A DNA stretch of 51,740 nucleotides from Elusimicrobiales bacterium (lineage in GTDB: Bacteria > Elusimicrobiota > Elusimicrobia > Elusimicrobiales > UBA9959), in NCBI GenBank assembly GCA_024681855.1, contig JAILAB010000057.1, positions 1-51,740 of the forward strand, in the 5' to 3' direction. Position numbers and translations under genes: made by a program. Each line of letters begins with the position of its first letter. The stretch's first letter is position 1. The notes below the pieces were generated by a model. The model ran no database searches. It was not told the origin of the DNA and saw nothing but the letters and a program-made list of their open reading frames with translations. Shown here piece after piece: positions 5,411 to 33,100 of this stretch.

Positions 5411-5940
5411 CTTTTCATATTCCTTTCGGTTTCGGCTTTAAGCCTGGAAAGAGCCGGCTTAATCTTAAGCCTGCTTATAGCTGATACCTTGTCAGTAAAA
5501 CATATACCGTCTAAATGATCCATTTCATGCTGGATGGCTTTGGCAAAAAGGCCTTCAGCATTTATCTCAACCGGCATGCCCTTTTCATTGAAGCAATGAA
5601 CTTTTACTTTCTGAAAGCGTTTTACCTTAGCAAAAATTCCTGGGAACGACAGGCAGCCTTCTTCCTCATTCATTTCGCCTGTTTTTTCTACAATAACAGG
5701 ATTTATAAGCACAGCATCAATGGTTTCACCCTCATCGCCTGACGGAATGCTTATTACTGCAAGACGCATGTCTAATCCGACCTGATTAGCAGCAAGGCCT
5801 ACGCCATGAGCCGCCTCCATAGTTTCAAACATATCTTCAATCACCGGCTGAAGTTTTTTCCTTATAATAGCAGGATCAACCGGTTTCATTTTACGCCTTA
5901 AAATAGGCTCGCCGTACTTATATATTTTCATTAGTGCCAT
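5407..5940 (-). CDS. def: Peptide deformylase
   Basis: Deformylase removes the formyl group from nascent proteins. All three motifs are present: GVGLAANQVG at 47-55, EEGCLSFPG with metal ligand C96, and QHEMDHLDG with ligands H138 and H142 and catalytic E139. At 177 residues it is of normal length. A GAAGGTG Shine-Dalgarno-like site lies before the ATG at 5940; the ATG three codons downstream (MKIYKYGEP) is an alternative start. It is the first gene of def-fmt-PASTA-rpe. Confidence 0.97.
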   Translation of the reverse strand: MALMKIYKYGEPILRRKMKPVDPAIIRKKLQPVIEDMFETMEAAHGVGLAANQVGLDMRLAVISIPSGDEGETIDAVLINPVIVEKTGEMNEEEGCLSFPGIFAKVKRFQKVKVHCFNEKGMPVEINAEGLFAKAIQHEMDHLDGICFTDKVSAISRLKIKPALSRLKAETERNMKR

Positions 5941-5978
5941 AAAACACCTTCAATATCATTATGCCTCAAAAAAATTCC

Positions 5979-6017
5979 CGCAGGCACTCAATAATATAAT
6001 TAAAGGACATGCCTGCG
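5979..6017 (-). terminator. Terminator after the APC permease gene
   Basis: The 8-bp arms CGCAGGCA (5979-5986) and TGCCTGCG (6010-6017) can pair around a 23-base loop. On the minus strand they are followed by GGAATTTTTTT. This placement, 20 bases after the permease stop and before def, fits a rho-independent terminator, although the loop is long. Confidence 0.55.
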
Positions 6018-6036
6018 CAGCTATTGTCTGGCTGTA

Positions 6037-8064
6037 TCATCTCATGCGATATGACATCTGCCTCCCAGCCCAAACGACCCTTGCCGTAACTTCATGGATT
6101 TCTTCTTCCGGCTTCTTAATCATTCCCCAGGCCATAGCCATTTTTTCAAGCTGCACTTCTGCGCCGCTTGCTCCTGAAACTCCCATGACGATTTCATTCG
6201 CTTTAAGGGCATGCGCAACCTGAGCTATGGAATAAAAAGGATCATTTGAGAAAACAAAAATAGGCTTAACAGTCTTGCCATATTTTTCCGCCATAAGTAT
6301 TACGGAGCGGAAGACCTCCCTATCTTCATCTGTCATTGTCTCTTCTCCGGCGTGAAGGCCTGCCGCTATTTTAGCGCTAAGAACAATTATGTCCGTATCG
6401 TCATCGTCTTCATTTTCAAGCACATAGGAAAGATGCACAAGGCTGTTCGGATTCCTTACCGGTATAAGTATGCGGCGGCTTCTCTTTAATTCACCGGCAA
6501 CTTTCAGTATATCCGACTCCATTCGCGTGTTCATTTTTTCTTCTTTATCATCATCCGGAGGAAGCAGCTGAGCTTTCCTTTCATTCATTTTTTCAGAAAT
6601 CTGGAAAATGATGAAGAATATTATGCTGAAGGAAACACCGCCTATGGTGGCTATCTTCTTTGTAAGCAGGTTCATGCCCACGACTGAAAGAAGAATGACA
6701 AAAACTATAGAAAGACCTATTGGAACATATACATTTCCGGCTTTTATGTTAAAAGGAAAGCGGAATTCTCTTTTTTCATCAGGTTTCTTAAACCTCAGAA
6801 TAATCATGGACAAAGTGTCAAAAGTAATGCTCCACAGAACTCCGAAGGCATAAGCCTCGCCGATGAGGAATATGTCTCCTCCGGAAAGGAAAATTGTCAA
6901 TATCTGAGCAGAGGCTACTATGTTTATCAGACGGTATGTTGTGCCGTATTTCGGGTGAAGCTGACGGAACCAGTCATGCAGGATTCCGTCTTCGGCTACC
7001 CGGTTAAGCACTCCGTTAGATCCAAAAAAAGAAGTGTTCACCGCTCCCACCAGCATTAATGCGCCTGAAAGAACAACCAGCGTCTGCATGGCTAGCCGTG
7101 CCACATAAGGTCCTTGAAGCTCCATGGCAAGGCCGCCCAGCATATTGTCTGCGTATTGCGGCATGTGTTCAGCAGGAATCACCAGCGCAGCCAGGAATGT
7201 GACCCCGCCAGTGAATATGATGCTGAAAATGAAAATAGTAATTACTGTTTTTTTTAGATTAGGATATTTAGGATCTTCCAAATCACGGTATACTTGCGCG
7301 AGAGTCTCAAGGCCGCTGAGCGCCACTATGGAATGTCCGAAAGCCATTATGAAGCCTATTATTCCGGCAGTCTTAAGCCATGGGATATTCTTAGTCCAGC
7401 CCAAAGCATGATCCGTAAGCTCCGGAAGAAAAGGAGGGAGAATTATATTATCGCGCTGGCAAAGAGTATATATTGACCAGCTTATAAGTATCACTGCAAC
7501 AACGGAAACGAAAGCTATTATTTTTACATTATTGTCAGATGACTCCTTCACGCCCCTAATATTGGCTCTCCAAAAATAAACAGTGACTGTTACTGCAAAA
7601 ACAACGGCAAATATTCTAGGGCTAATAGGCCAGTTTAACCCGGCAAGCGGAAGCAGGTTTGCCAATAATGCCCCAAGATAAATACCGGCTGTAACAGAGC
7701 TTATTGGCCCGGTAAGGATATAATCAAAAAGCAAGGCAGAAACAGAAAGCTTCGCCATTACGGAACCCATGGCTTCCCGCACAACCACATAAACGCCGCC
7801 GCGGGTGAACATTAGGCAGGATTCCATGTAAACGGAAAGCATTACCCCGGCAAACAGCATTACCCCAAGAACAAACCATGGGAATGCGGCGCCAAATGCG
7901 TTCATGGCTATGGAGCCTGAATAATATGCGCTTGATCCGAAATCACATAATACTATTGCCGCAGCTTTCCAAAAAGAAATGAAACTGAGCATGGCGGTGC
8001 TGAGAACAAAAACATGTTTCAATTTTCCGCCGGAAACAGGTAAAGTCTGCTGATTATTTTTCAT
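6037..8064 (-). CDS. APC-superfamily permease with C-terminal UspA-like domain
   Basis: The first 475 or so residues have about twelve hydrophobic segments. They resemble amino acid/polyamine/organocation permeases: an unwound first helix near FWKAAAIVLCDFGSSAYY, a helix-3-like FTRGGVYVVVREAMGS, and GHSIVALSGLETLAQVYRDLEDP in the middle. The substrate cannot be told. From about residue 525 a soluble domain starts with RRILIPVRNPNSLVHL and ends with ANEIVMGVSGASG, the universal-stress-protein fold, which in related transporters faces the cytoplasm as a regulatory domain. The next upstream gene encodes an EIIA-like protein, suggesting joint regulation. A TATTAT box lies 6 bases before the ATG and no Shine-Dalgarno site is visible, so the mRNA may be leaderless. 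Confidence 0.85.
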   Translation of the reverse strand: MKNNQQTLPVSGGKLKHVFVLSTAMLSFISFWKAAAIVLCDFGSSAYYSGSIAMNAFGAAFPWFVLGVMLFAGVMLSVYMESCLMFTRGGVYVVVREAMGSVMAKLSVSALLFDYILTGPISSVTAGIYLGALLANLLPLAGLNWPISPRIFAVVFAVTVTVYFWRANIRGVKESSDNNVKIIAFVSVVAVILISWSIYTLCQRDNIILPPFLPELTDHALGWTKNIPWLKTAGIIGFIMAFGHSIVALSGLETLAQVYRDLEDPKYPNLKKTVITIFIFSIIFTGGVTFLAALVIPAEHMPQYADNMLGGLAMELQGPYVARLAMQTLVVLSGALMLVGAVNTSFFGSNGVLNRVAEDGILHDWFRQLHPKYGTTYRLINIVASAQILTIFLSGGDIFLIGEAYAFGVLWSITFDTLSMIILRFKKPDEKREFRFPFNIKAGNVYVPIGLSIVFVILLSVVGMNLLTKKIATIGGVSFSIIFFIIFQISEKMNERKAQLLPPDDDKEEKMNTRMESDILKVAGELKRSRRILIPVRNPNSLVHLSYVLENEDDDDTDIIVLSAKIAAGLHAGEETMTDEDREVFRSVILMAEKYGKTVKPIFVFSNDPFYSIAQVAHALKANEIVMGVSGASGAEVQLEKMAMAWGMIKKPEEEIHEVTARVVWAGRQMSYRMR

Positions 8065-8244
8065 AGTCTGATAATATAATTATATATAATTCTCTAGAGC
8101 CTTATAAAGGCTGAATAAGGCATAACTGCTTCAAATTCTTTAATGAAAAATTGCTTAACATGAAGCCTTGGAGGCTCCAGCATGCTAATAAAAAACTTGA
8201 GCTTTCTTATGCAGCGATTTTGGAAAAACAGGAAATGCCAGACT

Positions 8245-8709
8245 TCAGCTGGCCAACATCTCATACACAGCCTGAGGATCTGCGGCTTCAGCAATTTTTG
8301 AGACAAACTCATCTGTAAACAGAGAGTTTATGGATGAAAGGAAGTCCAAATGTTTCTGAAAAAAGGCCGAATTTCGCGGCACAAGGGAAACCAGTACGGC
8401 TTTAACCGGGGAATTGCCGCCATTGTCAAAACCCTTGCGGGATATGCCAAGCACGCTATGAATATCGCGCAGTTCCGGAAATTTAGCAAAAGCTAAATAT
8501 AAGCTTGAGGCATGAAGCTGCTGAGAATCTCCAGACATCTGCAACAGCTCTTCCAATTCAGTAGAAGCCACATCTCTGGGAACTTCATCTTTTAAATGGG
8601 ATGCCAAAAAAGACAGAGCCTCTTTCTTGCCATAGGAGCTATCTAGGGAATCATCAAGAAAAAAAATGCTTCCTGGCGTCATTAGTGAAGTAAGTGTTAT
8701 ATTGCTCAT
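8245..8709 (-). CDS. EIIA-type (PTS fructose/nitrogen class) domain protein, probably non-phosphorylatable
   Basis: The 154-residue protein has the layout of the PTS EIIA type-2 domain: an N-terminal KKEALSFLASHL helix, a middle YLAFAKFPELRDIHSVLGIS segment, then VKAVLVSLVPRNSAFFQKHLDFLSSINSLFTDE, which matches the family's strand-plus-HL-helix pattern, and a final AVYEMLAS. Aligned by eye, the phosphorylated His of the PH motif falls on F74, so phosphotransfer looks lost. It is upstream of, and in the same direction as, the APC-Usp permease, with 180 bases between. A GAGG element lies before the ATG. A regulatory role toward the permease is my inference. The start regions of this gene and the divergent kinase are only 43 bases apart. 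Confidence 0.72.
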   Translation of the reverse strand: MSNITLTSLMTPGSIFFLDDSLDSSYGKKEALSFLASHLKDEVPRDVASTELEELLQMSGDSQQLHASSLYLAFAKFPELRDIHSVLGISRKGFDNGGNSPVKAVLVSLVPRNSAFFQKHLDFLSSINSLFTDEFVSKIAEAADPQAVYEMLAS

Positions 8710-8752
8710 TGCTGCTAGCCTCTGCTTAATATATATGCTATCATTTATGAAA

Positions 8753-9694
8753 ATGTGCCGTCAATTTTCAGATTTTTCCATTGGCGTAGACCGCGGAGGA
8801 ACTCTTACGCGAGTGCTTGCATTAGGCTATGACGGTGCTCATCTGCGCGAAACACATTTTCCAACGGAAGAAGGGATAAACTCATTCACTAAAAAACTGG
8901 CAGAAATAATAAAGGAATGGTCTGCGGAAAAAAAACCATTGGCAATCGCAAGCCGAGGGGCGCTTACCATACCGGCAGTAAGGGAAAGCATAATATCCGG
9001 CCTTGAAGGCCGCGCATCCATTAAGGCCGTTATATCCGATGCGGAAGCTGCGCATCTTGCGGCATTCGGAGAAAACAAAGGCTTGCTGCTCATTTCCGGA
9101 ACAGGCTCAGTTCTGCTAGCAGGAAAGCGTGGAGGTTTTACTATTTATGGCGGCAAAAACCCTGTTTCCGGAGATCCCGGTTCAGGCCGCTGGCTAGGCA
9201 GGCAGTGGCTAATAAAACATGGACTGCTTAAGGAAGATGAGCCCAGAAGCCATGCGGAAAGCGCCAGTTATGCCATGCTGCTTCTTTCCAAGGCAGAAAG
9301 GCACCACAACAATATAATAAGCAAAAAAGAATTACCAAGCTTAAAAAATGATGAATGCAATAATAAAGCGGCGATTGAAGAAGAGGGAAAATTCTGTCTG
9401 GAAACAGCAAGAAAAGGAGCGAAGTCGCTGGCTGGCCTGATTGCGCAAGCCGCAAAAGAAAATCCTGCATTTATTGAAGGAAATACCATAAGAGCCGCAG
9501 TGACTGGCGGAACAATGAACAGCTATTTCTATATCACGCAGATAATAGCAGCCATGCATGAAATAATGCCAAATTTGCATGCTGAGCTTTTTCCTATTCC
9601 TGAAACAGCGCAGGAGGCTGCAGCAAAGCTTGCAGCCAGGCTTGCAGGAAAACCTTCACTAAAAACACACAATAACACACAGAGAAAAAAATGA
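8753..9694 (+). CDS. BadF/BadG/BcrA/BcrD-type ATPase, probable N-acetylglucosamine (sugar) kinase
   Basis: The ASKHA-fold phosphate-binding loop IGVDRGGTLTRV lies near residues 9-20. ISDAEAAHLAAFGENKGLLLISGTGSVLLA, the metal and second phosphate segment typical of the BadF family and eukaryotic-type GlcNAc kinases, follows, then SGDPGSGRWLGRQWL, which in GlcNAc kinases surrounds the sugar site. About 313 residues is usual. The start is uncertain: ATG at 8753 has a TATCAT box 8 bases upstream, ATG at 8747 is also possible, and longer readings run into the divergent gene. It overlaps the downstream phosphatase by ATGA. The substrate is inferred from family resemblance. Confidence 0.82.
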   Translation: MCRQFSDFSIGVDRGGTLTRVLALGYDGAHLRETHFPTEEGINSFTKKLAEIIKEWSAEKKPLAIASRGALTIPAVRESIISGLEGRASIKAVISDAEAAHLAAFGENKGLLLISGTGSVLLAGKRGGFTIYGGKNPVSGDPGSGRWLGRQWLIKHGLLKEDEPRSHAESASYAMLLLSKAERHHNNIISKKELPSLKNDECNNKAAIEEEGKFCLETARKGAKSLAGLIAQAAKENPAFIEGNTIRAAVTGGTMNSYFYITQIIAAMHEIMPNLHAELFPIPETAQEAAAKLAARLAGKPSLKTHNNTQRKK

Positions 9695-12941: not shown

Positions 12942-13829
12942 TCAGTTAATTTTTATGTTTGCCTGACTGACTAATGAGTTTATAACTTCGCCTCTCTTGG
13001 CATTCAGCTTGTTCGCAAGTATTGCAGTTCGCAAACTTTCCTTAACCTCTTCAAGAGAAAGCTGCCTGGCGGGGCTTATGGAATTAATCTTAAAAACGCT
13101 ATACCCGCTGCCAGTAGCCATTACTCTGCTTAGCTGGCCAGGCCTCAGGCTAAATAGCTCATTCTCAATATTCTGAGGAAGCTGGCCTCTTGCAACATCG
13201 CCTACCAAGCCTTTCCTTTCCCTAAGGCCGGGATCAGCTGACCTGGCAGCTGACATTTCAGAAAAGTCAGCTTTGCTATTCTGCAAAAGCTCATCAATGA
13301 TTTGACCTGCCTCTTCCTTTGTCGGCACTATGATTTGGCTTATGTTATATGTTTCGGCCTTTACCAGTTTATCTTTGCCATTGCTGTATGCAGCTGATAT
13401 TTCACCTTCGGAAACACTTATGCCGCCAAGCTTAATAATAAGCTCATTCATTATAGCCTGATTCTTTAACCTGAGCTTAATGTCTTTTTCCGTAAGGCCT
13501 ATGCGGGCAAGATCCTTTGCCGCATCCTGCTTGGAGCGGCCTCCAAGGCTTCTCTCATAAAACGCATTTATGTTTTCATCAGAAACAGTTATTTTCTGCT
13601 TTGCGGCTTCGTCCAAAAGCACTCTTTCGGCTATAAGTTCATTAAGAATTTGATTGCCCTGAGCCTCCCAAAGCCTGACAGTAATGTCATTGGCAGTTAT
13701 TTTTTTCCCGTTTACCGTTGCCATTACTGTTTTTCCGTTTTTTAGCGCAGCAGCATGAACAGGTGATAAAGACATGCATAATGGCAAAACAGCGAAAACC
13801 GGCAATATAATAATTTTTCCTAGTCTCAT
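12942..13829 (-). CDS. Exported SurA/PpiC-like parvulin peptidyl-prolyl isomerase
   Basis: A signal peptide (MRLGKIIILPVFAVLPLCMSLSPVHA) is followed by an N-terminal SurA-like helical region (VMATVNGKKITANDITVRL; NELIAERVLLDEAAKQKITVS). A parvulin domain follows from about residue 160 (YNISQIIVPTKEEAGQIIDEL, FSEMSAARSADPGLRERKGLVGDVARGQLP, FSLRPGQLSRVMATGSGYSVFKI). It should act outside the cytoplasmic membrane, helping outer-membrane or secreted proteins fold. I chose ATG 13829, preceded by TAGGAG at 10 bases; a TTG two codons upstream is also possible. Its neighbours do not reveal its clients. Confidence 0.88.
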   Translation of the reverse strand: MRLGKIIILPVFAVLPLCMSLSPVHAAALKNGKTVMATVNGKKITANDITVRLWEAQGNQILNELIAERVLLDEAAKQKITVSDENINAFYERSLGGRSKQDAAKDLARIGLTEKDIKLRLKNQAIMNELIIKLGGISVSEGEISAAYSNGKDKLVKAETYNISQIIVPTKEEAGQIIDELLQNSKADFSEMSAARSADPGLRERKGLVGDVARGQLPQNIENELFSLRPGQLSRVMATGSGYSVFKINSISPARQLSLEEVKESLRTAILANKLNAKRGEVINSLVSQANIKIN

Positions 13830-13863
13830 AAGCAAAAAACTCCTATAAGTTTATTTAAGAAAA

Positions 13864-14031: not shown

Positions 14032-14763
14032 CTAAGGCTGAGCAGCGCCGGAATTTTTCTTCTTATCCATAAAATGCTTTAGCGCAAAGAAACCGACAGT
14101 AAGAATAATGATTATCGGAGTGGCAAAGGCATAAGACGCCCCTGAGAAATCGTACAGCAGGTCAAAACGGCCATAAAGCAGCGAGAAACGGGCCATAACC
14201 GTATTACCGAATGAAGCTCCGAAATAAATCATAAGGAAGTAAATTCCAATGTTTGAAGCCTTTTTCACAATGCCTTTATGCTCTACGGAGAAATAGAAAT
14301 AAGCAAGCACGCATACGGCTCCTATGGCTATTAAGAAGGAATTTATAATTGCTCCCCAGCTCATGGAGGCGAGCTGTGAAAATGGTTTTATCGTCCCGGC
14401 AATCTGCGCCATGAAGTCTGTGGCAAGATTAAGCGGAAGCACCAGGCCTGCGCCGTATCCCATAATGAATGTGAAGCCATATCTGGAAATCCATGATATG
14501 CGGGGGATAAACTGAGTAACTAGCGAAAGACCCAGCAGCACGGGAATTATTAGGACATATTCTCCCTGCATAAAAGGCTCATACGCTTTAGGAATCCAAG
14601 TTCCGTAAAGCAGAACAATAAACCACCAGCCCATGCCAACGCCTAAGTACAGATGTTCGGCAATTTTGAAAAGCGGATTGTCTTTATACAGAAAGCTGAA
14701 TAGAAATATCGTTAATCCTGCGGAAAGCCAGCCGCCAAGAATGATGGACATTGAGTTTTCCAT
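14032..14763 (-). CDS. Multi-pass membrane protein of unknown function, operon last gene
   Basis: The 243-residue protein has about seven hydrophobic segments, beginning with SIILGGWLSAGLTIFLFSFLY and ending with PIIIILTVGFFALKHFM. Conserved-looking turns include YLGVGMGWWFIVLLYGTWIP and MGYGAGLVLPLNLATDFMAQI. No family is recognised. A clear AGGAGA precedes the ATG, 3 bases after the previous stop. It is the last gene of the eight-gene operon and probably part of a membrane complex with the three genes upstream. Confidence 0.7.
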   Translation of the reverse strand: MENSMSIILGGWLSAGLTIFLFSFLYKDNPLFKIAEHLYLGVGMGWWFIVLLYGTWIPKAYEPFMQGEYVLIIPVLLGLSLVTQFIPRISWISRYGFTFIMGYGAGLVLPLNLATDFMAQIAGTIKPFSQLASMSWGAIINSFLIAIGAVCVLAYFYFSVEHKGIVKKASNIGIYFLMIYFGASFGNTVMARFSLLYGRFDLLYDFSGASYAFATPIIIILTVGFFALKHFMDKKKNSGAAQP

Positions 14764-14766
14764 GGA

Positions 14767-15588
14767 TCATTTCTCCTTTATAACGAGCAGAATCAAATTT
14801 GAAGACAGTATGAGCAGTATAACCAGCAGATGGGCCATGTTAAGGGCATCTATGCCGCTTGTGGCCTTTCCAGGCTTGCTTATCAGCGTTTCATATTCGC
14901 TAGCCCCTCGCATGCCTCCCACAAGGCCGCGTATCTGCTTATTCTGCAAATATGGGCCGAAGCCAAGCTGGCTTATAGCCGTAGTGCCGCCTATTATTGG
15001 CACGCCGTATTTGTCTCCGGCATAAGCCACCCATGCGTCAAGCATGCCGGTGCCTGTTATTTCAATCACCCCGGCTATGTCTTTATAAGTTTTTATGCCT
15101 GCCATAACAGGCATGCCGCGCACATCATTCCCTTCCGCATCTTTGTCATAGGCTTTATATATGTCTATGCTCATCTGAGTCATTGCGGCCATATAGTTAG
15201 GATTATATGGCATTATTACATAATCCTTGCCATATTCCTTGCCGTATTCAGCCGGAACCGTCTGATTAAGCTCCTCAATCATGCCTGGGGCGCCTGATAT
15301 GAATGTTAGTATCAGAACTCTTACATCCTTGCTGAACAGGTGGCGCAGGGCAGCGACCGCCTGAGGATGAAGCTCAGGCTTTGTGGATGGATCATAATCC
15401 GTGCCGAGTATCACTGCCTGGCCAGGCTTAAGTTTTTCCACAAAATCATAGAAATCCCTTACGCTCTGCTGCGATGTTTTGCCGGAAAGGCCAAAGGGAT
15501 GTATTATGGGCCATACCATAACTGCGGTAAGCAGCAGGAATATCCAGCGGCGGTCTATTCTTAAGAATCTTCTTAATTTATCTTTCAT
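14767..15588 (-). CDS. Membrane protein with large extracytoplasmic domain, unknown function
   Basis: The 273-residue protein starts at the ATG at 15588, directly after the preceding TGA (TGAAATG) and with GGGA upstream; an upstream in-frame ATG would overlap that gene. One membrane segment near residues 14-33 (IFLLLTAVMVWPIIHPFG) and another at the C-terminus (LLVILLILSSNLILLVI) bracket a domain of about 210 residues that should lie outside the membrane. Within it are AVILGTDYDPSTKPELHPQA, VRVLILTFISGAPG, MPYNPNYMAAMTQM and GVPIIGGTTAISQLGFGPYL. I do not recognise a family. The two-anchor layout and tight spacing suggest a subunit of the complex encoded by this operon. Confidence 0.7.
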   Translation of the reverse strand: MKDKLRRFLRIDRRWIFLLLTAVMVWPIIHPFGLSGKTSQQSVRDFYDFVEKLKPGQAVILGTDYDPSTKPELHPQAVAALRHLFSKDVRVLILTFISGAPGMIEELNQTVPAEYGKEYGKDYVIMPYNPNYMAAMTQMSIDIYKAYDKDAEGNDVRGMPVMAGIKTYKDIAGVIEITGTGMLDAWVAYAGDKYGVPIIGGTTAISQLGFGPYLQNKQIRGLVGGMRGASEYETLISKPGKATSGIDALNMAHLLVILLILSSNLILLVIKEK

Positions 15589-15589
15589 T

Positions 15590-16261
15590 TCAGTCCCTGC
15601 CCATATATTGTCTTTCAATTCCGAATATAATCTTTAAGGAAGTTACCGCAGCGCCGATTGTAATTCCTATCATGATTCCGCGTTTTGCCGCTACGCTAGG
15701 CACCTGCATTATCCATTGTATTATATCGCCTATTCCGCATATTCCAGTCCAGCCTAACATGGCATCCCAAAGCATCTGCCCCGCAGGGACATTTCCAAGG
15801 ATAAGTATAAATGCGGCAATAAAAAGCACAAATGCCTGAACGGATTTTATTCGGAATGAGCGGAAAGCCGTTGAGACTATATAAAAAGCCAAAACGGCGA
15901 ACATTGTGGCAGCAAGCGGATTATAAAGATATCTGAATGCCCAGCCCAGCGATGTAAGAACACCGTCTTTAGCCTGCGCGCCATGACTTATTATTCCAGG
16001 AATAACTACAGCAAAGAAGCCTATGAATACAAACAGGCTATAGCCCCAGCCGTCAACGCGTTTAGCTATTTTTTTATAATGCGTCATGAGAAGGCTGATA
16101 AGGCCTAGCAGGAAAGCGAAGCCTGAGACAATCACTTCCCACTGGTTAAGCGTGCTGAGATAAGCGGAAGATGCCTTCGCCGGCACATAATAGGTAGCCA
16201 AAGTCAGCAGACCGACAATTGTAACGATAGCTAATGGAATGTATTTTTTAATTATAAGCAT
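15590..16261 (-). CDS. Multi-pass membrane protein of unknown function
   Basis: The 223-residue protein has about six hydrophobic segments: YIPLAIVTIVGLLTLATYYV, VSGFAFLLGLISLLM, YSLFVFIGFFAVVIPGI, LAATMFAVLAFYIV, AFVLFIAAFILILG, and a C-terminal IMIGITIGAAVTSLKIIFG. A loop with GNVPAGQMLWDAMLGWTGICGIGDIIQW may line a pore or subunit interface, but that is guesswork. It begins one base after the DUF6754-like gene and ends two bases before the next ATG, so translation is probably coupled. Confidence 0.7.
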   Translation of the reverse strand: MLIIKKYIPLAIVTIVGLLTLATYYVPAKASSAYLSTLNQWEVIVSGFAFLLGLISLLMTHYKKIAKRVDGWGYSLFVFIGFFAVVIPGIISHGAQAKDGVLTSLGWAFRYLYNPLAATMFAVLAFYIVSTAFRSFRIKSVQAFVLFIAAFILILGNVPAGQMLWDAMLGWTGICGIGDIIQWIMQVPSVAAKRGIMIGITIGAAVTSLKIIFGIERQYMGRD

Positions 16262-16262
16262 A

Positions 16263-17516
16263 TCAGTAATTAGTGAAAAAATCCAAAAGACCTTTTACAA
16301 AACCATCGCAATGGAAAACAGCCGCTAATGCAATGGCTATGCCTCCTATAAGAACGGAAAGCATCATGAACAGCTTTCCGAAATCCTGAAGCTTAAGCAC
16401 GCTTAGGAGCATTGGCTCTTTAGAGAGATATGCCCCGGCTGCGTAAAGCTCTTCGCCTATTAGAGTATAATCGCATGAGGTAAAGAAGAATGGCAGCTGA
16501 GACTCTGAATCAGTTGCGGCAATCTGTATGGCCCCGGCAGAAGCTCCCACTTCAGTGAGAAGCAGGGACTCGGCCAAAAAATAACCCATGAAAAAACAGG
16601 CAGCAGGTTTTTCCCTTTCAATCATGCCATCCAGCGAAGCCGCATAAGAAAACTGGTCAGAGCTAAGGAAGAAATTCGCATCATCGTGATATGAATCAGG
16701 GCGGCCTGCCTCAATATAAGACTGTTTTACAGTTTCCTTGGCCACAGACATGACTATCGGATCATAATGCGGCACTTTTATTATGCTGTCATACTCTGCA
16801 ACTTTCTTTGAAACTTCCCCAAGAATTGAAAGCGAAGCAATAGTGTTAACGCTAGACATGCCGTTTATTCCTGTGGAGTAATATATTGGCTTGCCCATTT
16901 CCGTTGCCCTGCCTATGGCCTCATCTATGGCATCAAGCCCTGCGATGCGGCGTATGAAAAGCCCCTTTTTTTTAGCGCGCGACATTGTCATGAAGAATGC
17001 CGCAGTTATAAGAATTACCATTAAAAGGCCATTAAGGCGGGGGAGATTGAACCAATTGTCATCTGATGAGGCGCATAATATTGCGCTTTCAGCAATAGGC
17101 TTTCCGTCTCTAAAAGCCTTTATCTTGAAGCACAGGACAGTGCCAATGTCAGCATCTCCATCAACGCTTTTTATGGGAATTTTTACTGCATACTCATCTG
17201 AGCCATGACTCCAGGCCCAAAATGGCATGCGCATCTTATCAGCTGTTTTTTCAAAAGCCTTGAATGAGTCCGCAAGCTTCCATTCATTTTCGGAGCTTTC
17301 AGTTTTGGCATATATTTCATAAACCACGCCCTCATCGTCCTCATCAGCAGGCCAGCGCAAAAGAATGTCCCCGCCGCTGTCATAAGGCATATCTTCTGCT
17401 ATTGCATCTTCAATAAGAGGAAGCGCAATGTTAGACTTGCCATTCAAAGCAAATGATAAGCCTGGCCATAAAAAAAGAAAAGAAAAGAAAACTAATAACA
17501 ATTCTGTTTTTTTCAT
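16263..17516 (-). CDS. DUF6754-like membrane protein with extracytoplasmic fibronectin-type domain
   Basis: A signal peptide (residues 1-24, LLLVFFSFLFLWPGLSFA) is followed by a beta-rich region of about 40-150 that looks like a fibronectin type III-like fold (GGDILLRWPADEDDEGVVYEIYAK, VLCFKIKAFRDGKPI). A membrane segment lies near 160-178. A cytoplasmic domain of about 200 residues contains MGKPIYYSTGINGMSSVNTIASL, VPHYDPIVMSVAKETVKQSYIEAGRPD and GASAGAIQIAATDSESQLPFF. A final membrane segment lies near 380-402. From memory it resembles the DUF6754 family, which I cannot verify here. It heads four consecutive membrane genes. Confidence 0.65.
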   Translation of the reverse strand: MKKTELLLVFFSFLFLWPGLSFALNGKSNIALPLIEDAIAEDMPYDSGGDILLRWPADEDDEGVVYEIYAKTESSENEWKLADSFKAFEKTADKMRMPFWAWSHGSDEYAVKIPIKSVDGDADIGTVLCFKIKAFRDGKPIAESAILCASSDDNWFNLPRLNGLLMVILITAAFFMTMSRAKKKGLFIRRIAGLDAIDEAIGRATEMGKPIYYSTGINGMSSVNTIASLSILGEVSKKVAEYDSIIKVPHYDPIVMSVAKETVKQSYIEAGRPDSYHDDANFFLSSDQFSYAASLDGMIEREKPAACFFMGYFLAESLLLTEVGASAGAIQIAATDSESQLPFFFTSCDYTLIGEELYAAGAYLSKEPMLLSVLKLQDFGKLFMMLSVLIGGIAIALAAVFHCDGFVKGLLDFFTNY

Positions 17517-17601
17517 AACATAAAATCAATATAATAAAAAGACGAGGCTGCTGGCAAACCAAAAAATATAAAATCAGGAAATTTACAGTCTGCCGGCAGA
17601 T

Positions 17602-19887
17602 TTACATAAGCCCGGAATGTTCCCTCAGCTCCTCTTCTTTGAGTCTCTCTTCTAAATAATTAGGAATCATGTCTGAACTGCCTTTTTCTGATATTTCCAT
17701 AACAAAAACAGTATTTACAATATTTTTTCTGTACAGCTCATTGCTAAAATGCAGCAAGGAAAGATGCTTATTATAAAAGTTGCGGAAAACTTCCCTTGCA
17801 TGGGGATTCTTAAACTGCCTATAAACTTTATTCCTTATAGCTTCCCCGGGATTAAATATAACATGAGTAAAACCGGAAGCCTTAAGCTTTGCATACATTT
17901 CATCGGCATCAGATGAAGTTTCCGCAAGCCTGGCAAGAGATTCCGTATTAAAGGCAGAGGCTGCTGAAAAAATCCTGCGCAGGAAAAACCCCCTGGAATC
18001 GCCAAGAAAAATTATCTTTGCCTCCGAAGGAAGATTTTCATTTACGTACTTAATAGCTTGGTAAACAGGGAAGGGATAAATATTATGTGAATTTGAAAGA
18101 AAATAATCAGCGCTTACTTTGTTAAATAGCACATAATAGCGGTCCTGGTTTCCTATAAGCGAGAAAAAGATCATAAACATAAAAACGCCTTGCGCCAGGA
18201 AGAGGGCACGCAGCCAGGCAGACAGCTTCGGCTTAGCAATTTCAGCCGCAGTTATGATTATGGAAATTGCAGGCAGTACAGGCAGGAGGAATCTTGACAT
18301 TTCGGAAACTGATGACCAAAGCAGCCAGCTTGCGGCTGAAAAAACAGCCAAAAGAGGAATAACCGGACTTGCTGAAAAAAACATAGGCACAAACGGAAGA
18401 ATCAGGAAAAATAATGGCGGGAAAATATCTCCTCCAGTAACATCTCCTCGCAAAATGCTCCACGGATGCTTAAGCCATGAAATAAAAGAATTCCTTGGAT
18501 GAGTGTCAGCCATAAATGCGGAAATCTGGCTGGAAGAATATCCTTCCGGAATGCCAAATACAGATGTGGCAAAAGGGAAGAAAGGATTGCCGCAGTAAAC
18601 AATATTTTTTATAAGCCATGGGATTACAGGAAGCGCAGCCGGCAATGAAAAAAGAATAAGAGGCTTTAAGGCTAAGCGCAAGTTTTTCCTGAAGAAAAAA
18701 ACAACCATAAGCATAAGGCTTATCACATATAAAAGCGCTGTTGCTTTTACAGCCATGGCACAGCCGGCAAAAAAACCGCTCATGACATAAAAAAACACTG
18801 AGCCGCTGCTTATTTCAAATATGCCAGATGGCCCGGCAGAAATATTGGAACTAATTGTATCAGCATCTATTTTTTCCTTACTGCCCTTGACTTTATGTTT
18901 TGCACATGCCTGAACAGGGAAAAGAGCCCGCAATGCTGCCGCTAAAGCTATGGAGCAATACATTGCGGACATTGTTTCTGTACCAGCATAAAGCAAAGAT
19001 GAACCGCAAATCACAAAAGATAAGAAAAACAATGCAGGCCATACAGAAAACCTTGCAGAAAAATATCTGCACGATATGCCGGTAAAAGACAGTATGGCAA
19101 TCGCCATGGAATAGCAGTTAAAAAGCTTAGGCACTGCTTCAGAATACAGAATGGAAAGTCCAGCTGAAAATATCATTCCATGGAACATGAACAGATTAGA
19201 ATAAAGATTATCAGGAACATTAACAAAACCATGGGAATTTACCCAAAGGTTAGGAATGCCTAAATGATATACAAGGGAATCATAAAATATTTCCGGCGAA
19301 AGGGCAGAAAAAAAGGCAAATGCCGCAAAACAAAGCAGGCAAAAAAAAGCCGTTTTTTCCAAAAAGCCTATGTTTTTCCAAAAAGAGCGGAAATCCGGCT
19401 TAATAAAAGGCATTCTGCGCAATGAGAAATATCCTAAAACCATGCCAGCAGCTGCGAACAGCCATATAGCAGCCGGATAAAGAAGATGCAGGACGGACAA
19501 TGCGAAAACCCAGGAGGAAAGAAACATCATGCCTAAGCCAAAAGAAAAAGAAAGCTTTTCAAGGCAGGAGAAATCTTCTTTGAAAAAAGACAGAGCAAAA
19601 CGCCCGGAGCCATGGCAGGAAGCAGCAAGAATTGCGAAAACAGAAGCTTCAAGCAAATAGCCAGGCAAAACTGAAAAAAATCCGGATCCTATTGAAAGAA
19701 AAAAAGCATTGAAATGATGATAAAAATATGAAAAGGAAGCATTGCTGAATTGCGGGGAAAACAGCCAGGCATACAAAATAAACATGCCCCAGGCTGCCGA
19801 AATGAAAATGAGCAGCGCCGGTTTCTTAACAGCCGGCGCATGCTCCATGGCAGCAGCTGCTGCCAGTTTGTTCTTCTTTTTTGCCAT
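17602..19887 (-). CDS. GT-C-fold membrane glycosyltransferase-like protein
   Basis: The 761-residue protein has a basic N-terminus, then twelve or more hydrophobic segments to about residue 580, and a soluble C-terminal domain of about 180 residues. The first large loop carries SPEIFYDSLVYHLGIPNLW near residue 205, similar to the acidic motif of PMT/ArnT-like GT-C glycosyltransferases that use lipid-phosphate-linked sugars. The C-terminal part (PSEAKIIFLGDSRGFFLRR, GFTHVIFNPGEA) resembles the soluble domain found in such proteins. The transferred sugar and acceptor are unknown. It sits three bases after the KOW-like protein gene and 85 bases before the DUF6754-like gene, so it may be a passenger of the operon. 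Confidence 0.7.
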   Translation of the reverse strand: MAKKKNKLAAAAAMEHAPAVKKPALLIFISAAWGMFILYAWLFSPQFSNASFSYFYHHFNAFFLSIGSGFFSVLPGYLLEASVFAILAASCHGSGRFALSFFKEDFSCLEKLSFSFGLGMMFLSSWVFALSVLHLLYPAAIWLFAAAGMVLGYFSLRRMPFIKPDFRSFWKNIGFLEKTAFFCLLCFAAFAFFSALSPEIFYDSLVYHLGIPNLWVNSHGFVNVPDNLYSNLFMFHGMIFSAGLSILYSEAVPKLFNCYSMAIAILSFTGISCRYFSARFSVWPALFFLSFVICGSSLLYAGTETMSAMYCSIALAAALRALFPVQACAKHKVKGSKEKIDADTISSNISAGPSGIFEISSGSVFFYVMSGFFAGCAMAVKATALLYVISLMLMVVFFFRKNLRLALKPLILFSLPAALPVIPWLIKNIVYCGNPFFPFATSVFGIPEGYSSSQISAFMADTHPRNSFISWLKHPWSILRGDVTGGDIFPPLFFLILPFVPMFFSASPVIPLLAVFSAASWLLWSSVSEMSRFLLPVLPAISIIITAAEIAKPKLSAWLRALFLAQGVFMFMIFFSLIGNQDRYYVLFNKVSADYFLSNSHNIYPFPVYQAIKYVNENLPSEAKIIFLGDSRGFFLRRIFSAASAFNTESLARLAETSSDADEMYAKLKASGFTHVIFNPGEAIRNKVYRQFKNPHAREVFRNFYNKHLSLLHFSNELYRKNIVNTVFVMEISEKGSSDMIPNYLEERLKEEELREHSGLM

Positions 19888-19890
19888 TAA

Positions 19891-21033
19891 TTATTTTTCA
19901 AGAACTTCAATATTAGCGCGGGGGACAACAATCACCTCTCCGTTATCTAGTTCCACTTCCAAGATACGGGCTTTTGATTCGCTGCCTATTACCGTAAGCT
20001 CCGGGGGGAGAGATTTCACCTTTCCCAATATTCCGAAGTATGGCTCGCGGATAATGCGTATCGGATCTCCAGGCTCTATCCAGCCTCTGCCCTGATCACG
20101 CTTCACTTCTGAAATATGCTTAGGCATTCCGGGAATGATAATCTCCGGCCTCATAACGCCAGCACGAATCTGGGTAGCTCCGGAAACAGATGCCTTTTCG
20201 CCCTCCCTGGATTTAAGAAGCTCAAAAGTTCCATGAGCCATGGGAATGGTTCCAAAACCTTCTGTAATTATAAGGGTAATGCCTATTTTTTCTGTCCCCG
20301 TGACAGCAACGCCGATGTCATAACCTAACAGAAGGCGCAAATCTCTGTCATCTATTCCGCCTACCACTAAAGCATGCACACCCTTTTCAATGGCTTTCTT
20401 AATTGTTGCCAAAGATGCGTATTTTCCGCCAATTAGTATCTTTCCTTTATATTCATCCTTGATCTCTTCCGGAAGCAATTCCTTATCAGGCTTATCTGCC
20501 GCCATGGCTATCTCGCCATTAGTTTCGCCTCCAATTCCGAAAATTCCCTGAATAAAGGTTCCTTCGCTTTCCACTGTAACGCCAAAATCAGGAGTAACAT
20601 CAATTATCTTGCCTGTTATATAAGCTTTGATAGGCAAGCGCTTAGGCGGTTCTCTTAAAAGAACCTGTCCTGTTACAGTTGAAATTGATTCCACAGTGCC
20701 CGTAATGCTAGACTCTACAGTGGATTTAAGCAAGTCCTGCAAAAATTTCCATTTAATAATGGGCTTTGTTTCAGCAAGCACTTCTCCCTTCTCTATTTTA
20801 TCGCCTTCTTTCTTAAGCATATATTTTGCAACTTCAGCAGCGCTTATGCCTAGCTTATTAGCAACATTAACTGAATAGACTTTTCCGGGAAGCTCAGTAA
20901 GGGCCACTTCCTCCAAAGCATCCACATTCTGGCCTTTTTCAGCAAGCACCTTGCCTGGGATTGGCAAAAGTCTTTTTTTAGTAATAACAGTGCATGGCAT
21001 TACTTTAAGTCCGGGGGTATATGCATGAGCCAT
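19891..21033 (-). CDS. Protein with barrel-sandwich-like and KOW-like segments, GlmL-associated
   Basis: The 380-residue protein has no membrane segment or signal peptide. Its N-terminal part (LLPIPGKVLAEKGQNVDALE; KLGISAAEVAKYMLKKEGDKIEKGEVLAE) has the spacing of lipoyl/barrel-sandwich hybrid motifs, as in RnfC-like or fusion proteins, but no modified-lysine motif. A middle part has GKILIGGKYASLATIKKAIEKGVHALVVGGI and LLGYDIGVAVTGTEKIGITLIITEGFG. A KOW-like segment WIEPGDPIRIIREPYFGILGKV lies near 325-345. An AAGGAGAAAA site precedes the ATG. It lies between the GlmL-like ATPase and the membrane genes and may connect the two; this is inference. Confidence 0.65.
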   Translation of the reverse strand: MAHAYTPGLKVMPCTVITKKRLLPIPGKVLAEKGQNVDALEEVALTELPGKVYSVNVANKLGISAAEVAKYMLKKEGDKIEKGEVLAETKPIIKWKFLQDLLKSTVESSITGTVESISTVTGQVLLREPPKRLPIKAYITGKIIDVTPDFGVTVESEGTFIQGIFGIGGETNGEIAMAADKPDKELLPEEIKDEYKGKILIGGKYASLATIKKAIEKGVHALVVGGIDDRDLRLLLGYDIGVAVTGTEKIGITLIITEGFGTIPMAHGTFELLKSREGEKASVSGATQIRAGVMRPEIIIPGMPKHISEVKRDQGRGWIEPGDPIRIIREPYFGILGKVKSLPPELTVIGSESKARILEVELDNGEVIVVPRANIEVLEK

Positions 21034-21065
21034 AAATTTTTTCTCCTTATTCCTTTGTATCAGGT

Positions 21066-22877
21066 TTAATCATTCATTGCGGCTACAGGATACATGTCAA
21101 GCGCCGAATACCATTTCTTTAACTTAGCTATGCGCTCATCTTTATCCTGAGGCATTGAGAATGGGCGCCCGCGGCCATCAAATACGAGACCGACCACGCC
21201 GCCTTCTATACTCGCTTCTATCTCATGGCCCTTGCCCGCACCCATGTCAAAACCTTTTGCAGGCTTAGCTATTATTTTAGCTTTAGGCACATCAAACGGA
21301 ATGTGAACCATATCGCCAGAAAGCAGCTCTCCTTTCTGTTCCTTGCCATCGGGGGTAACCACAGTCCAGTCCAATATCTTTTCGCCTTCCTTCTTGCAAA
21401 CTCCTTTAGGGGCTATGCAGGTGCCAAGGCGTACCAGGCAGTCATTATAAAATACATCCAGCGCGGCTTTTTCGCTAAGCTGAGAAAGAACTCCAAGATG
21501 AGGCATCATGAAAATTGAGTCAACGGCTATCATTGTAACGCCTTCAGGCTGATATGAATCTATCATCATCTGCATGGACTGCATGCGGCGGGGAGAATGA
21601 GCAAGGATGCCGCCTGAGCCAATAATATAGTTCAGCTTCATTACATCAATCAGGCTTTGGCCGGAAGCCTGCTGGTCAAAAGCGTCAGAAATGGATCTCT
21701 CCTGCTGCACGCCCTTAAGGCCCACTGCGAGAGCCTTATGCTGATCAAATGCCAGCCTTAACGCTTCCCTTGCAGCCGCATGCTCTATCTGAAGATCTTG
21801 TATGGTCTGAGGTATGGTAGTAGGGCGGATCATCTTGTTCTTAAGCCTGTTGCGAAGATCCTGTTCCTCTATTTTTCCGTATGTAAGCCAGCGCAGCAAA
21901 TTAGGCAGGCCGGCTTCCGCCATTACATTTGAAACAGAATAGCTCATGCCCAAATTAGCGCTCACAGTGCGGTTAAAAATTCCATTAAATACGCTAAACA
22001 CGTCGGTGGTTGCTCCGCCTATGTCAACAGCAAGAACATTATAATTATTAGCCTTTGCAAATTTTTCAGTCATGGTGCCTACGGCTGCCGGAGTAGGCAT
22101 AATAGGAGCGCCAACCATCTTCATCAGCTTAGGATAGCCTGGGGCCTGCTGCATAACATGCTCAAGAAAAATGTCATGTATTTTATGCCGCGCCGGCATT
22201 AGGTTCTCCTTTTCCAGGGAAGGCCTTAGATTTTCTGTAATAATAAGGGCAGTGCTTTCTCCAAGAATTTCCTTTATCTTATCCTGAGCCTTATTGTTTC
22301 CGGCATAAATTACTGGCAGCTTATAGGATGCGCCAAGACGAGGCTTCGGGTCAGCGGATTTCAGGAACTGTGCCAGTTCAACGACATGGGTAACCGTGCC
22401 TCCGTCTGTGCCGCCAGAAAGAAGCATCATGTCCGGGCGCAATTGGCGGATTCGCTCGATTTTCTCATGCCCTGCGCGACCGTCATTCGTGGCAAGAACG
22501 TCCATAACTATCGCGCCAGCGCCTAATGCGCAGCGCTGCGCCGATTCTCCGGTCATGGCCTTTACGGCACCGGCAACCATCATCTGAAGACCGCCTCCGG
22601 CAGAAGAAGTTGAAACATATATGTCAGCTCCATTCTTCCCGTCATTGGGAATTATCTTTTCGCCGTCTAGCAGTTTTCTTCCTGAAAGCTCTTCCACTTC
22701 CGTTATGGCGTTCAACACGCCTTTAGTAACATCTTCAAAAGGGGCTTCTACGGTAGTTGGGGCTTCGCCGCGGAAAGTCTGGCGGTATGTGTCGCCTTTT
22801 TTCTCAATGAGAATGGCTTTTGTCGTCGTGCTTCCGCAGTCCGTCGCAATAATCACTTCGAGTTCTTGGTTGGACAT
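21066..22877 (-). CDS. MutL/GlmL-like ASKHA ATPase (glutamate mutase L family)
   Basis: The 603-residue protein has the actin/Hsp70-like ATPase signatures IIATDCGSTTTKAILIEKKG (residues 9-28) and LAVDIGGATTDVFSVFNG near 285. The family block RPDMMLLSGGTDGGTVTHVVELAQF lies near 145, and IYAGNNKAQDKIKEILGE follows. These match MutL/GlmL, the protein encoded with adenosylcobalamin-dependent glutamate mutase and thought to protect or reactivate it. Here the mutase subunits are absent and the protein is longer than I remember for GlmL, with an extra C-terminal region of about 130 residues. It may power a different complex. A GGAGAG site precedes the ATG, which overlaps the upstream gene by 25 bases. 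Confidence 0.82.
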   Translation of the reverse strand: MSNQELEVIIATDCGSTTTKAILIEKKGDTYRQTFRGEAPTTVEAPFEDVTKGVLNAITEVEELSGRKLLDGEKIIPNDGKNGADIYVSTSSAGGGLQMMVAGAVKAMTGESAQRCALGAGAIVMDVLATNDGRAGHEKIERIRQLRPDMMLLSGGTDGGTVTHVVELAQFLKSADPKPRLGASYKLPVIYAGNNKAQDKIKEILGESTALIITENLRPSLEKENLMPARHKIHDIFLEHVMQQAPGYPKLMKMVGAPIMPTPAAVGTMTEKFAKANNYNVLAVDIGGATTDVFSVFNGIFNRTVSANLGMSYSVSNVMAEAGLPNLLRWLTYGKIEEQDLRNRLKNKMIRPTTIPQTIQDLQIEHAAAREALRLAFDQHKALAVGLKGVQQERSISDAFDQQASGQSLIDVMKLNYIIGSGGILAHSPRRMQSMQMMIDSYQPEGVTMIAVDSIFMMPHLGVLSQLSEKAALDVFYNDCLVRLGTCIAPKGVCKKEGEKILDWTVVTPDGKEQKGELLSGDMVHIPFDVPKAKIIAKPAKGFDMGAGKGHEIEASIEGGVVGLVFDGRGRPFSMPQDKDERIAKLKKWYSALDMYPVAAMND

Positions 22878-23173
22878 TTGTTCTCTCCGTTAAGGGATTT
22901 TAAAAAAAAGTCTACAGCCTTCGGGTTTTCCATTAACTCAACGAATTTTTTCGTCTTCTCTGCCCCGAAAACTGTCGTAAGAAAAGGCTGCAGGAATACC
23001 AAAGCCTGCGCGCCAAGCCCGTGAACCGGGCGGGATGCTTCCACTGCCAGCGAAGCTATGTAATCCATCTCTTTCGCTCTGATTTTCTCAACAGCTTTCA
23101 GAATAAGTTCCTTTTCATCAGCCGAAGGTTCAGGATGCTCAGGCATCTTAAAGGCATTGGACCAGAATCCCAT
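22853..23173 (-). CDS. Short conserved-looking protein heading the GlmL-like operon
   Basis: The 106-residue soluble protein begins MGFWSNAFKMPEHPEPSADE and is mostly helical, with KELILKAVEKIRAKEMDYIASLAVEASRPVHGLGAQALVFLQPF and a final VDFFLKSLNG. I do not recognise the family. It is the first gene of the operon and overlaps the GlmL-like start by 25 bases, so its product probably works with that ATPase. There is no Shine-Dalgarno site; a TAAAAT box lies 9 bases before the ATG, consistent with a leaderless transcript. Confidence 0.65.
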   Translation of the reverse strand: MGFWSNAFKMPEHPEPSADEKELILKAVEKIRAKEMDYIASLAVEASRPVHGLGAQALVFLQPFLTTVFGAEKTKKFVELMENPKAVDFFLKSLNGENKCPTKNSK

Positions 23174-30163: not shown

Positions 30164-33100
30164 ATGACAAAAATGAAAAAAATATTTTTTTTGGCGCTTC
30201 TTCTAACGGTATCAATGGCTGGCGGGGCTTTTGCTGATCTGGCTAAGCTTAACACTGCCAGGGCAGGCGGCTACACGACTACGCTGCTCCCTAACGGTAA
30301 TATACTTGTTACAGGAGGCTACGGCACTTACAGTACCCCTGCAAATTATTATAAGAGTGCAGAAATATATGTATCGTCAAAAGGAGTATTCGAACCTATT
30401 AGCAATATGCAGGTAGCTCGTTCTTCGCATACCGCAACGCTGCTTCCAAATGGCAAGGTACTTATTTATGGCGGGTTCGGCACAGATGGCGATGCGATTC
30501 CCTCGTTTGAAATTTTTGATCCTTATACAAATTCATTTACACTATATTCTCCAGGCAATCTCTCTTATCCTCAAGGCGAACACACCGCAACACTGCTTAC
30601 ACAAGGTGTAAATAAAAATAAGGTTTTATTATGCGGTGGAAGAACTCAAGTAAATGGACCAGTATATTTAATTTGTACAAGATTTAATTCAATGGTAGCA
30701 AATTTCAACAATGCGATAGAAACATATATTCATATGCGCGGGGCCCGCACAAATCATACGGCAACACTTTTATCAAATGGAAATGTACTTATAGCTGGAG
30801 GCAGAAGTTATACTACAAATGAATATCTTGTCTCCACTGATTTATATGATGTTGGGGAAAATGATTTTACGCTTAATAATGGCGCATTAGTAGTGGGCAG
30901 AAGAGATCATGCCGCTGTTTCTTTAAATAATGGAAAAACAGCCATAATAGGCGGATACAATGAAAATTTCCGCTATTCCTCCGATTACCCCTATGACATA
31001 GACACTGATGATAACTGGTATAATGAAGACGACGGTTTACCTTTAGCAACAAGGCATAATCCCGGGTATCAAGGATATCTTGATTCAGTTGAATTATTTG
31101 ATAAATACGGAAAACCAACAGTCATATCCGGGCCTGATTCAGGCATCAAAACAATGCCATACAGGCTTGCCCGTTCCGCTGCGGCATTAGATCCAGACGG
31201 GAAAATAGTGCTAAATGGCGGCAGGGGAAACATTCCTGTCACTTTTGCAAATGTTTCAGTTACATTCCTTGAGGGTTCTATACTTAAATCAGCTGGAGCA
31301 ATCGATACCAATGCAATAGGAATAAGTACAACGGCCTCTACAGCCAAGTTTGAGCTTTCAGACACCACTTTGTCCAGGCCTGTATCCGGCCATATATTAA
31401 ACGGAGACATTTACATTCCCACAAGTGATGAAGACGGAATAGCAGTAAAGGTAGGGGATGCAGACAATGGCCAAATCCAAGTAAAGTTCCATGGCAGGGA
31501 TGACCAAGATGTAAATGATAAAGATGATGTGAAGGCTATTTTAGATAATTTAAAAGTCGGCAGATATTATGACAAAGATAAGCCATCGGGCAATCTTGCG
31601 GCTACATCAGTCGTGCTTAAGGATCTTGCGGGAACTATTACCTTCTCGCCATTTATTCATGATGCCGATGAGCCAAAAAGCGCTTCAATAAATTATCTCT
31701 ACAACTCTACTACTGATGCTACTTTTCTTGGCTGCTACAATTCAGTTACTGGATATCCATACAACAATGCTCTCGGCAAATACATAAGAGCCTCGTTATT
31801 TTCTTCTAATCCTACAAGTTTTCCCGGGTCTTATTATTGCCAGCCTTCTGTTCCTGCTCAGGATCAACGTTATGCGCGATTATCATCAGTAAGTTTGACA
31901 CTTCAAATAGACGGAATCCCAAAAGCATATAATGGGGCCCAGCTTACAGGAGAGGTGCAAATAAAAAGCTTCAAAATTTCAGGAGGCACATCAGAAGGTT
32001 TTACACAGCCATTTACTATAGAAGGAGACGAAACAACTACGCAAGTGGCCAAAGCAAAATTCTACAACATATATCCAACATGTACTGGCTCTGGAGAGGA
32101 TACGAAATGTAAAATTTCATTTCCAGGTTTAAAGTTTAGTCTTGATAATCAAAACGCCTTGATAGGAATAATAAAAAATGCCGATGAAAATAGCTTGTCA
32201 ATCAGCACTGTCACTATAGGATTATATGGCAACGAATACAAATTTGATGAGGTATCTGCCGAAATAAATTTCTACGCAAATCAAGTAGACTTAACAGATG
32301 AATCTTATGCAGTGGATGTTTCTACCATTGTAATAAGGGATATGATTTTCTCAAACACTCTTTCATATAACCCAGCTAACTCAACCTGGGATTCCTCTGT
32401 TGGAGCAGAGTCCGGTGACACCTTATACGAATATACCGCAAGTCAGTCAGGCTCCACCGGAATGACAGCTTTACTTGACCATACTCTTATAATACCTGCT
32501 TCCGGCAGCCCCGTACTGATAGGAGGAAAGGGCTGCAGAGTTACAGGCTCAGCATCATGTCGAAGGCAGAATCAAGGTTCCCCAGTCCCAGAATCTGACA
32601 GGCTAGAAGTCGGCAGCGGAGGTCTTTTTATTAGAAACAGCAATGAAATGCTTCCCGTTATGAGAACCTATCCCACTGGCGGCAGCGGAGGACAGCTCAA
32701 TACGCCAAGACAAGGCCATACTACAACTGCGCTCCCAAATAAGGATATCCTGGTATGCGGCGGCTCTGACGGGACCCAGGCGCTTAGTTCATGCGAACTT
32801 TACAGCAATGAAACGAAAAAATGGTCATATACAGGTTCCATGAAAACACCTCGTTCTGCACACACTTCCACGCTCCTGCCTAATGGCAAGGTAATTGTAG
32901 TTGGAGGAACAGACGGGAATGGCCCGCTTAACACAACTGAGATCTATAATCCAAAGACTGGCAATTTCACGGAAAGCCCGGTAAAAATGTCCTACCCAAG
33001 ACAAAATCATACATCCACGCTTCTGCCTAATGGCAATGTGTTTGTAGTAGGAGGCTCCACAACTACAGCCTACGAGGTTTTTGTAACAACTGCAAATAAA

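Follow-up and report, generated by a model that had tools for sequence, protein, structure and literature searches.

GlmL/MutL accompanies cobalamin-dependent glutamate mutase. What, then, is an ATPase of this type doing in an operon shared with a set of membrane proteins? The question is raised by a 51,740-nucleotide stretch of DNA from an Elusimicrobiales bacterium (the window; contig JAILAB010000057.1 of assembly GCA_024681855.1, positions 1 to 51,740 of the forward strand), in which eight minus-strand open reading frames (ORFs), running from position 23173 to 14032, overlap or are closely spaced, with a largest gap of 85 bases (Table 1). Seven of the eight genes form a conserved system: ORF106, encoding a small soluble protein, the MutL-type ATPase of the ASKHA superfamily, KOW380, a putative adaptor, and the four genes of a membrane module - DUF6754, M223, M283 and M243. 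These genes have been retained together across many uncultured phyla and no described machine is like the set; we therefore regard it as a probable energy-driven device of a new kind, located in the cell envelope.

One answer would be that the ATPase is an ordinary GlmL, accessory to a cobalamin-dependent mutase encoded elsewhere. Its membership of PF13941 (E 6.5e-128, Pfam) speaks for this, and the initial annotation had recognised a MutL/GlmL-like ASKHA ATPase, an identification borne out by family membership and by the ATPase motifs DxGSTxTK, DxGGxTTD and GSGG, which are intact in all unfused copies (as DCGSTTTK, DIGGATTD and GSGG). However, the protein fails the NCBIfam cut-offs both for the GlmL equivalog (NF040745; 236 bits, cut-off 475) and for Or-4, a GlmL-related ornithine degradation protein (NF040744; 220 bits, cut-off 600), and lies below that of glmL_fam too; Pfam also reports a weak BcrAD_BadFG match. 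Nor is there a mutase to serve. The annotation had noted the absence of mutase genes, and this extends to the whole genome (2.02 Mb, about 90% complete, with the operon on contig C77), where mutase E (PF06368) has no match; in no genome carrying the system does mutase E rise above cut-off. The same search detects mutase E at 750 bits in genome G284, which lacks the system and in which an operon (L256, 1500-4764) encodes a 137-residue protein of mutase S size, a 460-residue GlmL and a 484-residue mutase E. This true GlmL is 31% identical to the MutL of the system and has neither its C-terminal extension nor the GxxxDxRGRP motif found there. B12-binding matches in the window's genome fall in frames of 502-574 residues; the four inspected resemble, by eye, radical-SAM proteins that bind B12 and are unlike the mutase S subunit of about 137 residues. 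A methylmalonyl-CoA-type mutase was also considered as the client and rejected: it is missing in the window's genome and in 38 of 61 genomes, nearly all genomes without it carry the system, and the two show no correlation. Because no genome with the system has mutase E above cut-off, the MutL of the system is not an ordinary GlmL. For glutamate mutase the ordinary-GlmL explanation is refuted as far as incomplete genomes allow, and in its general form we regard it as almost certainly wrong.

Is the operon itself more than a chance arrangement? The initial annotation had proposed an eight-gene minus-strand operon, and all eight ORFs were found where it placed them, although alignment A4 of the M283 family favours an internal ATG ten codons downstream of the TTG, so that the true start of this gene is probably near 15588. 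In a promoter and terminator scan, promoters were not above chance and terminators not clearly so. That the operon exceeds chance is indicated by recurrence of the same gene order across phyla. A KOW380-alignment scan of 84,980 species genomes returned 426 loci, of which we read the best 80, ranked by similarity to the Elusimicrobiota profile. Beyond Elusimicrobiota, these best 80 include WOR-3/Stahlbacteria, Cloacimonadota, Eisenbacteria, Edwardsbacteria, Zixibacteria, Latescibacterota, Coatesbacteria, Planctomycetota, an anammox bacterium and a metagenome-assembled genome of Nitrospiraceae. Eight loci outside the window's family (L122, L124, L127, L132, L138, L145, L149 and L257) have MutL, KOW380 and DUF6754 side by side in the same order as the window, and in L122 all seven genes are consecutive, with gaps of -4, 4, 9, 9, 4 and 1 bases. 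The loci of relatives are built from two blocks, ORF106-MutL-KOW380-(GT-C) and DUF6754-M223-M283-M243, which are usually adjacent, and in the loci read the four module genes always keep this order. The conservation of gene order that the annotation made its test is thus found in other genomes and phyla. Its proposed membership stands for the ATPase, the KOW protein and the four-protein module, with two amendments: the GT-C-like gene has a homologue in no locus outside Elusimicrobiota and is not core, whereas ORF106, which matches no Pfam family and has low sequence conservation (41% mean pairwise identity), has homologues immediately before MutL both in Elusimicrobiota and in other phyla and is a core member.

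Co-inheritance is evident in two sets of genomes, most of which are incomplete assemblies from metagenomes. First, among 295 Elusimicrobiota genomes, KOW380 is present in 47, MutL in 48 and DUF6754 in 46, and of 50 genomes that have at least one of these genes, 45 have all three (Fisher P values < 1e-47, inflated by relatedness). Because of this inflation, a better argument is provided by two outlying lineages, G187 and G255, which have all three genes, although most other members of their families carry none of them. The exceptions include G284, with its true GlmL and mutase, and G308 (L258, 5095-8475), with a decayed copy of the cytosolic block, where ORF106 and MutL are intact, KOW380 is broken by a stop and no DUF6754 was found in the genome. 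Among 61 relatives of the window's genome, DUF6754 occurs in 33, all from the same family as the window, and is absent from the sampled sister family. Second, in 29 further genomes picked for having KOW380 (those of L122 and L124-L151; one belongs to Elusimicrobiota), MutL is present in 28 and DUF6754 likewise in 28.

How might such an ATPase be joined to its partners? In KOW380 the initial annotation had seen barrel-sandwich-like and KOW-like segments, and it had proposed that the ATPase drives or assembles a membrane complex of the last four products, with this protein as the link. The segments and the tie between ATPase and KOW protein are supported. Three WOR-3 genomes encode natural MutL-KOW380 fusions of 845-867 residues (L246, 3795-6365; L260, 4084-6687; L261, 1761-4298; all on the minus strand), in which the N-terminal half matches MutL at E 1e-121 or better and the C-terminal half shows two or three separate stretches of similarity to KOW380 (E 3e-45 to 5e-41). 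Since separate MutL and KOW380 genes are kept in the same genomes, the fusions are paralogues. Their existence supports the view that MutL and KOW380 would operate as one unit. A PKD-domain-like lipoprotein of 665-720 residues is encoded near all three fusions.

The family of KOW380 (alignment A2, 29 sequences) points to a barrel-sandwich hybrid as its probable N-terminus, with RnfC_N matches in 23 of the 29 members (best E 5.4e-7), NQRA_N matches in nine, and biotinyl-lipoyl matches as well; the window's own KOW380 has no RnfC_N match at E 0.05. The C-terminal domain is a KOW domain of the SPT5/NusG type, as indicated by Foldseek matches that include SPT5 KOW5 and by a PDB profile match (AlphaFold model of KOW380, predicted local distance difference test score, pLDDT, 85.8). 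A NanE-like match of the middle region, weak and confined to two of 29 members, was rejected, and viral contigs yielded no KOW380 relatives. The N-terminal matches raise the alternative of an Rnf/Nqr-like ion-translocating redox complex, in which KOW380 would take the place of RnfC/NqrA and sit on the membrane complex, and MutL would donate electrons in an ATP-driven manner or act as a reactivase, like HgdC/BcrAD. However, barrel-sandwich domains are widespread, a PDB search with the KOW380 profile, carried to E 10, recovers neither RnfC nor NqrA chains, alignment A2 contains no conserved or invariant cysteine suited to iron-sulphur clusters, and none of M223, M243, M283 and DUF6754 matches a Pfam family for Rnf/Nqr membrane subunits. 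We therefore consider a redox complex of this kind highly improbable.

The DUF6754 protein is, as annotated, a clear member of PF20539 (E 1.1e-107; 359 bits against a gathering score of 27). It and MutL are the only two products with a clear Pfam assignment; the other six ORFs match no family above cut-off in Pfam or NCBIfam. With topology predicted from hydrophobicity and charge, the protein consists of a signal peptide, an outward fibronectin type III (FnIII)-like domain, a transmembrane helix, the DUF6754 domain, for which the positive-inside rule gives a cytosolic position, and another transmembrane helix. The FnIII-like domain has profile matches to solved structures (titin and other FnIII chains). 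In M283, AlphaFold and topology put about 204 residues outside the membrane, close to the 210 or so of the initial annotation; the model is of high confidence (pLDDT 95.4, predicted template modelling score 0.89) and Rossmann-like by strand and helix order, and its fold has no PDB match at E <= 0.001. Sequence searches gave no convincing PDB relative for MutL, M283, M243 or M223, no convincing Pfam match for M223 and no Pfam match for M243. Profile comparison detected no homology between M223 and M243, and did not support a homology between DUF6754 and M283 that had been suspected by eye from C-terminal motifs.

Conservation differs by compartment. Among copies outside Elusimicrobiota, mean identity is 73% for the MutL ATPase domain and 61% for the cytosolic DUF6754 domain, against 29% for the outward FnIII-like domain; the outward domain of M283 stands at 39%, and KOW380 copies are 56-61% identical. 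As the cytosolic DUF6754 domain is far better conserved than the FnIII-like domain, a common cytosolic partner for the module is supported, and a variable outer face with a conserved inner one fits what would be expected if complexes of several outward specificities had one cytosolic engine in common. The 29 KOW380-bearing genomes contain 70 DUF6754 places: 22 of these genomes have at least two and the maximum is five, often in the form of complete modules in tandem, whereas the same genomes usually have one unfused MutL. The window's genome itself has a second complete module, 45-58% identical to the first, at 5212-8312 (L039) of an 8.9-kb contig (C56) that carries neither MutL nor KOW380.

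Taken together, these observations suggest a two-part, seven-gene system, in which a cytosolic MutL-KOW380 engine would dock on a four-subunit membrane complex and power or reset it, a model to which we give an even chance. The cytosolic part would comprise ORF106, MutL and KOW380, the latter two acting as one unit, and the membrane part DUF6754, M223, M283 and M243, probably as one complex. KOW380 would dock the ATPase on the conserved cytosolic DUF6754 domain; nucleotide cycling by the ASKHA fold may then alter the state of the membrane complex. The outward FnIII-like and Rossmann-like domains would set the target of each complex, and one engine would serve several paralogous complexes per cell. 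Put more generally, many diderm phyla, most of them uncultured, may possess a new class of ATP-driven membrane machine, in which an ASKHA (MutL-type) ATPase, and not an ABC, AAA+ or rotary one, energises a transmembrane complex via a barrel-sandwich/KOW adaptor, and one engine is shared by complexes that differ in outward specificity; this wider statement we advance tentatively, at rather less than an even chance.

Four observations weigh against the engine model. The genomes counted for co-occurrence are not independent samples in phylogenetic terms; most WOR-3 loci from the KOW380 scan have MutL, KOW380 and the module at separate places in the genome; in the stretches read, no membrane module lies beside the fused paralogues; and among the neighbours of the module, none common to all names a substrate. 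The unlinked loci and the fused paralogues, like G308, which retains MutL and a disrupted KOW380 but in which no DUF6754 was found, would suit two separate housekeeping units that share hosts and often a neighbourhood - MutL-KOW380 acting on a soluble target, and a membrane complex with no relation to it. This we judge improbable, since 28 of the 29 genomes have both parts even where these are unlinked, and the outlying lineages G187 and G255 carry all three genes. The main rival is a maturation chaperone: MutL-KOW380 would be an ATP-dependent assembly or quality-control factor that inserts, folds or activates the membrane proteins and does not power them. The ASKHA superfamily has chaperones such as Hsp70 and reactivases such as that of diol dehydratase among its ATPases, and one ATPase set for several paralogous modules is what an assembly factor would show; but the conserved cytosolic face of DUF6754 suits maturation factor and motor alike, and nothing in the present evidence separates the two. 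We rate a chaperone as a serious, if somewhat unlikely, candidate.

Table 1. Genes of the operon in the window, listed in operon order.
Gene product	Positions	Strand	Remarks
ORF106, small soluble protein, first operon gene, 106 residues	22853..23173	-	Homologues directly upstream of MutL
MutL/GlmL-type ASKHA ATPase, 603 residues, C-terminal extension of ~120 residues	21066..22877	-	PF13941; overlaps ORF106 by 25 bases
KOW380 adaptor (putative), 380 residues	19891..21033	-	32 bases after MutL; probable barrel-sandwich hybrid at the N-terminus, alpha/beta middle region, KOW domain at the C-terminus
GT-C-like polytopic membrane protein, 761 residues, accessory	17602..19887	-	3 bases after KOW380; weak LIC_10190 match
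DUF6754 protein, 417 residues	16263..17516	-	85 bases after GT-C; PF20539
M223, polytopic membrane protein, 223 residues, about 6 transmembrane helices	15590..16261	-	1 base after DUF6754; topology, alignment A5
M283, 283 residues, Rossmann-like domain between two transmembrane helices	14767..15618	-	TTG start, 29-base overlap with M223; AlphaFold
M243, polytopic membrane protein, 243 residues, closes the membrane module	14032..14763	-	3 bases after M283; topology, alignment A6

The GT-C-like label given to the eighth gene in the initial annotation can be kept as a prediction, its sole basis being a weak NCBIfam match below cut-off; the protein has no Pfam match. In WOR-3 loci L125, L128, L129, L131 and possibly L133, a protein of 930-980 residues is encoded upstream of KOW380 (gap of 1 base or small overlap), which in L125 is a TMEM260-like O-mannosyltransferase with tetratricopeptide repeats (PF11028, E 6e-30); a GT-C gene beside KOW380 is thus seen in two phyla, the GT-C family differing between them. 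Three other WOR-3 genomes (L140, L141 and L148) have a 293-residue PorV/PorQ-like outer-membrane protein 2-3 bases downstream of KOW380. Module copies in single genomes lie beside genes that by eye resemble ExbB/ExbD/TonB, outer-membrane proteins or type IV pilins; in a cloacimonadotal locus (L231, 3480-12654), two tandem modules follow ExbB-, ExbD- and TonB-like genes. The GT-C genes and module neighbours are weak hints that point to the cell envelope and to no named substrate.

Within the window, the operon is followed by a SurA/PrsA-like peptidyl-prolyl isomerase (12942-13835, minus strand). Its homologues lie beside the membrane module in most relatives, on the opposite strand; in the window and a congener they are on the same strand. 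On the plus strand, a 2138-residue protein with kelch- and FnIII-like repeats and a FlgD/sorting-domain-like C-terminus (30164-36580) precedes a PorV-like outer-membrane protein (36591-37637), by eye a surface-protein/secretion pair. Another ASKHA-type protein (8666-9694, plus strand), BadF/BadG- or N-acetylglucosamine kinase-like by eye, is encoded upstream of an inositol-monophosphatase-like gene and is unrelated to the operon.

A literature search whose coverage excluded subscription journals and preprints found no paper naming DUF6754, PF20539 or PF13941, and nothing relevant. At the least, the name glutamate mutase L is wrong for the PF13941 genes that bear it in the genomes considered here. 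If the engine model is correct, the MutL/GlmL ATPase family works outside cobalamin chemistry, an ASKHA-powered transmembrane machine would represent a new energy-coupling principle, and a function would be gained for DUF6754 and five protein families without a Pfam entry, in phyla known almost exclusively from metagenomes.

How does the system compare with those already described? With GlmL/MutL (NF040745/PF13941) it shares the fold family and motifs of the ASKHA ATPase, but here there is no mutase, the ATPase has an extra C-terminal domain and scores half the equivalog cut-off, and an adaptor and membrane module adjoin it. The ASKHA reactivases and activators (diol dehydratase reactivase, HgdC/BcrAD), to which the weak BcrAD_BadFG match points, are ATPases of the same superfamily that change the state of another protein; their known targets are soluble enzymes, whereas the conserved partners here are membrane proteins. 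RnfC and NqrA, of Rnf and Na+-NQR, are also cytosolic proteins encoded with membrane proteins, and KOW380 may share their N-terminal barrel-sandwich hybrid, but it differs in its C-terminal KOW domain and its lack of FeS-type cysteines, and its membrane partners have no Pfam match to subunits of the RnfA/D/E/G and NqrB/D/E types. PF20539, for its part, is a family without described function. Each ingredient thus has distant relatives, but we know of no system that combines these parts and, because the combination corresponds to no described machine, the set would be categorically new as a system.

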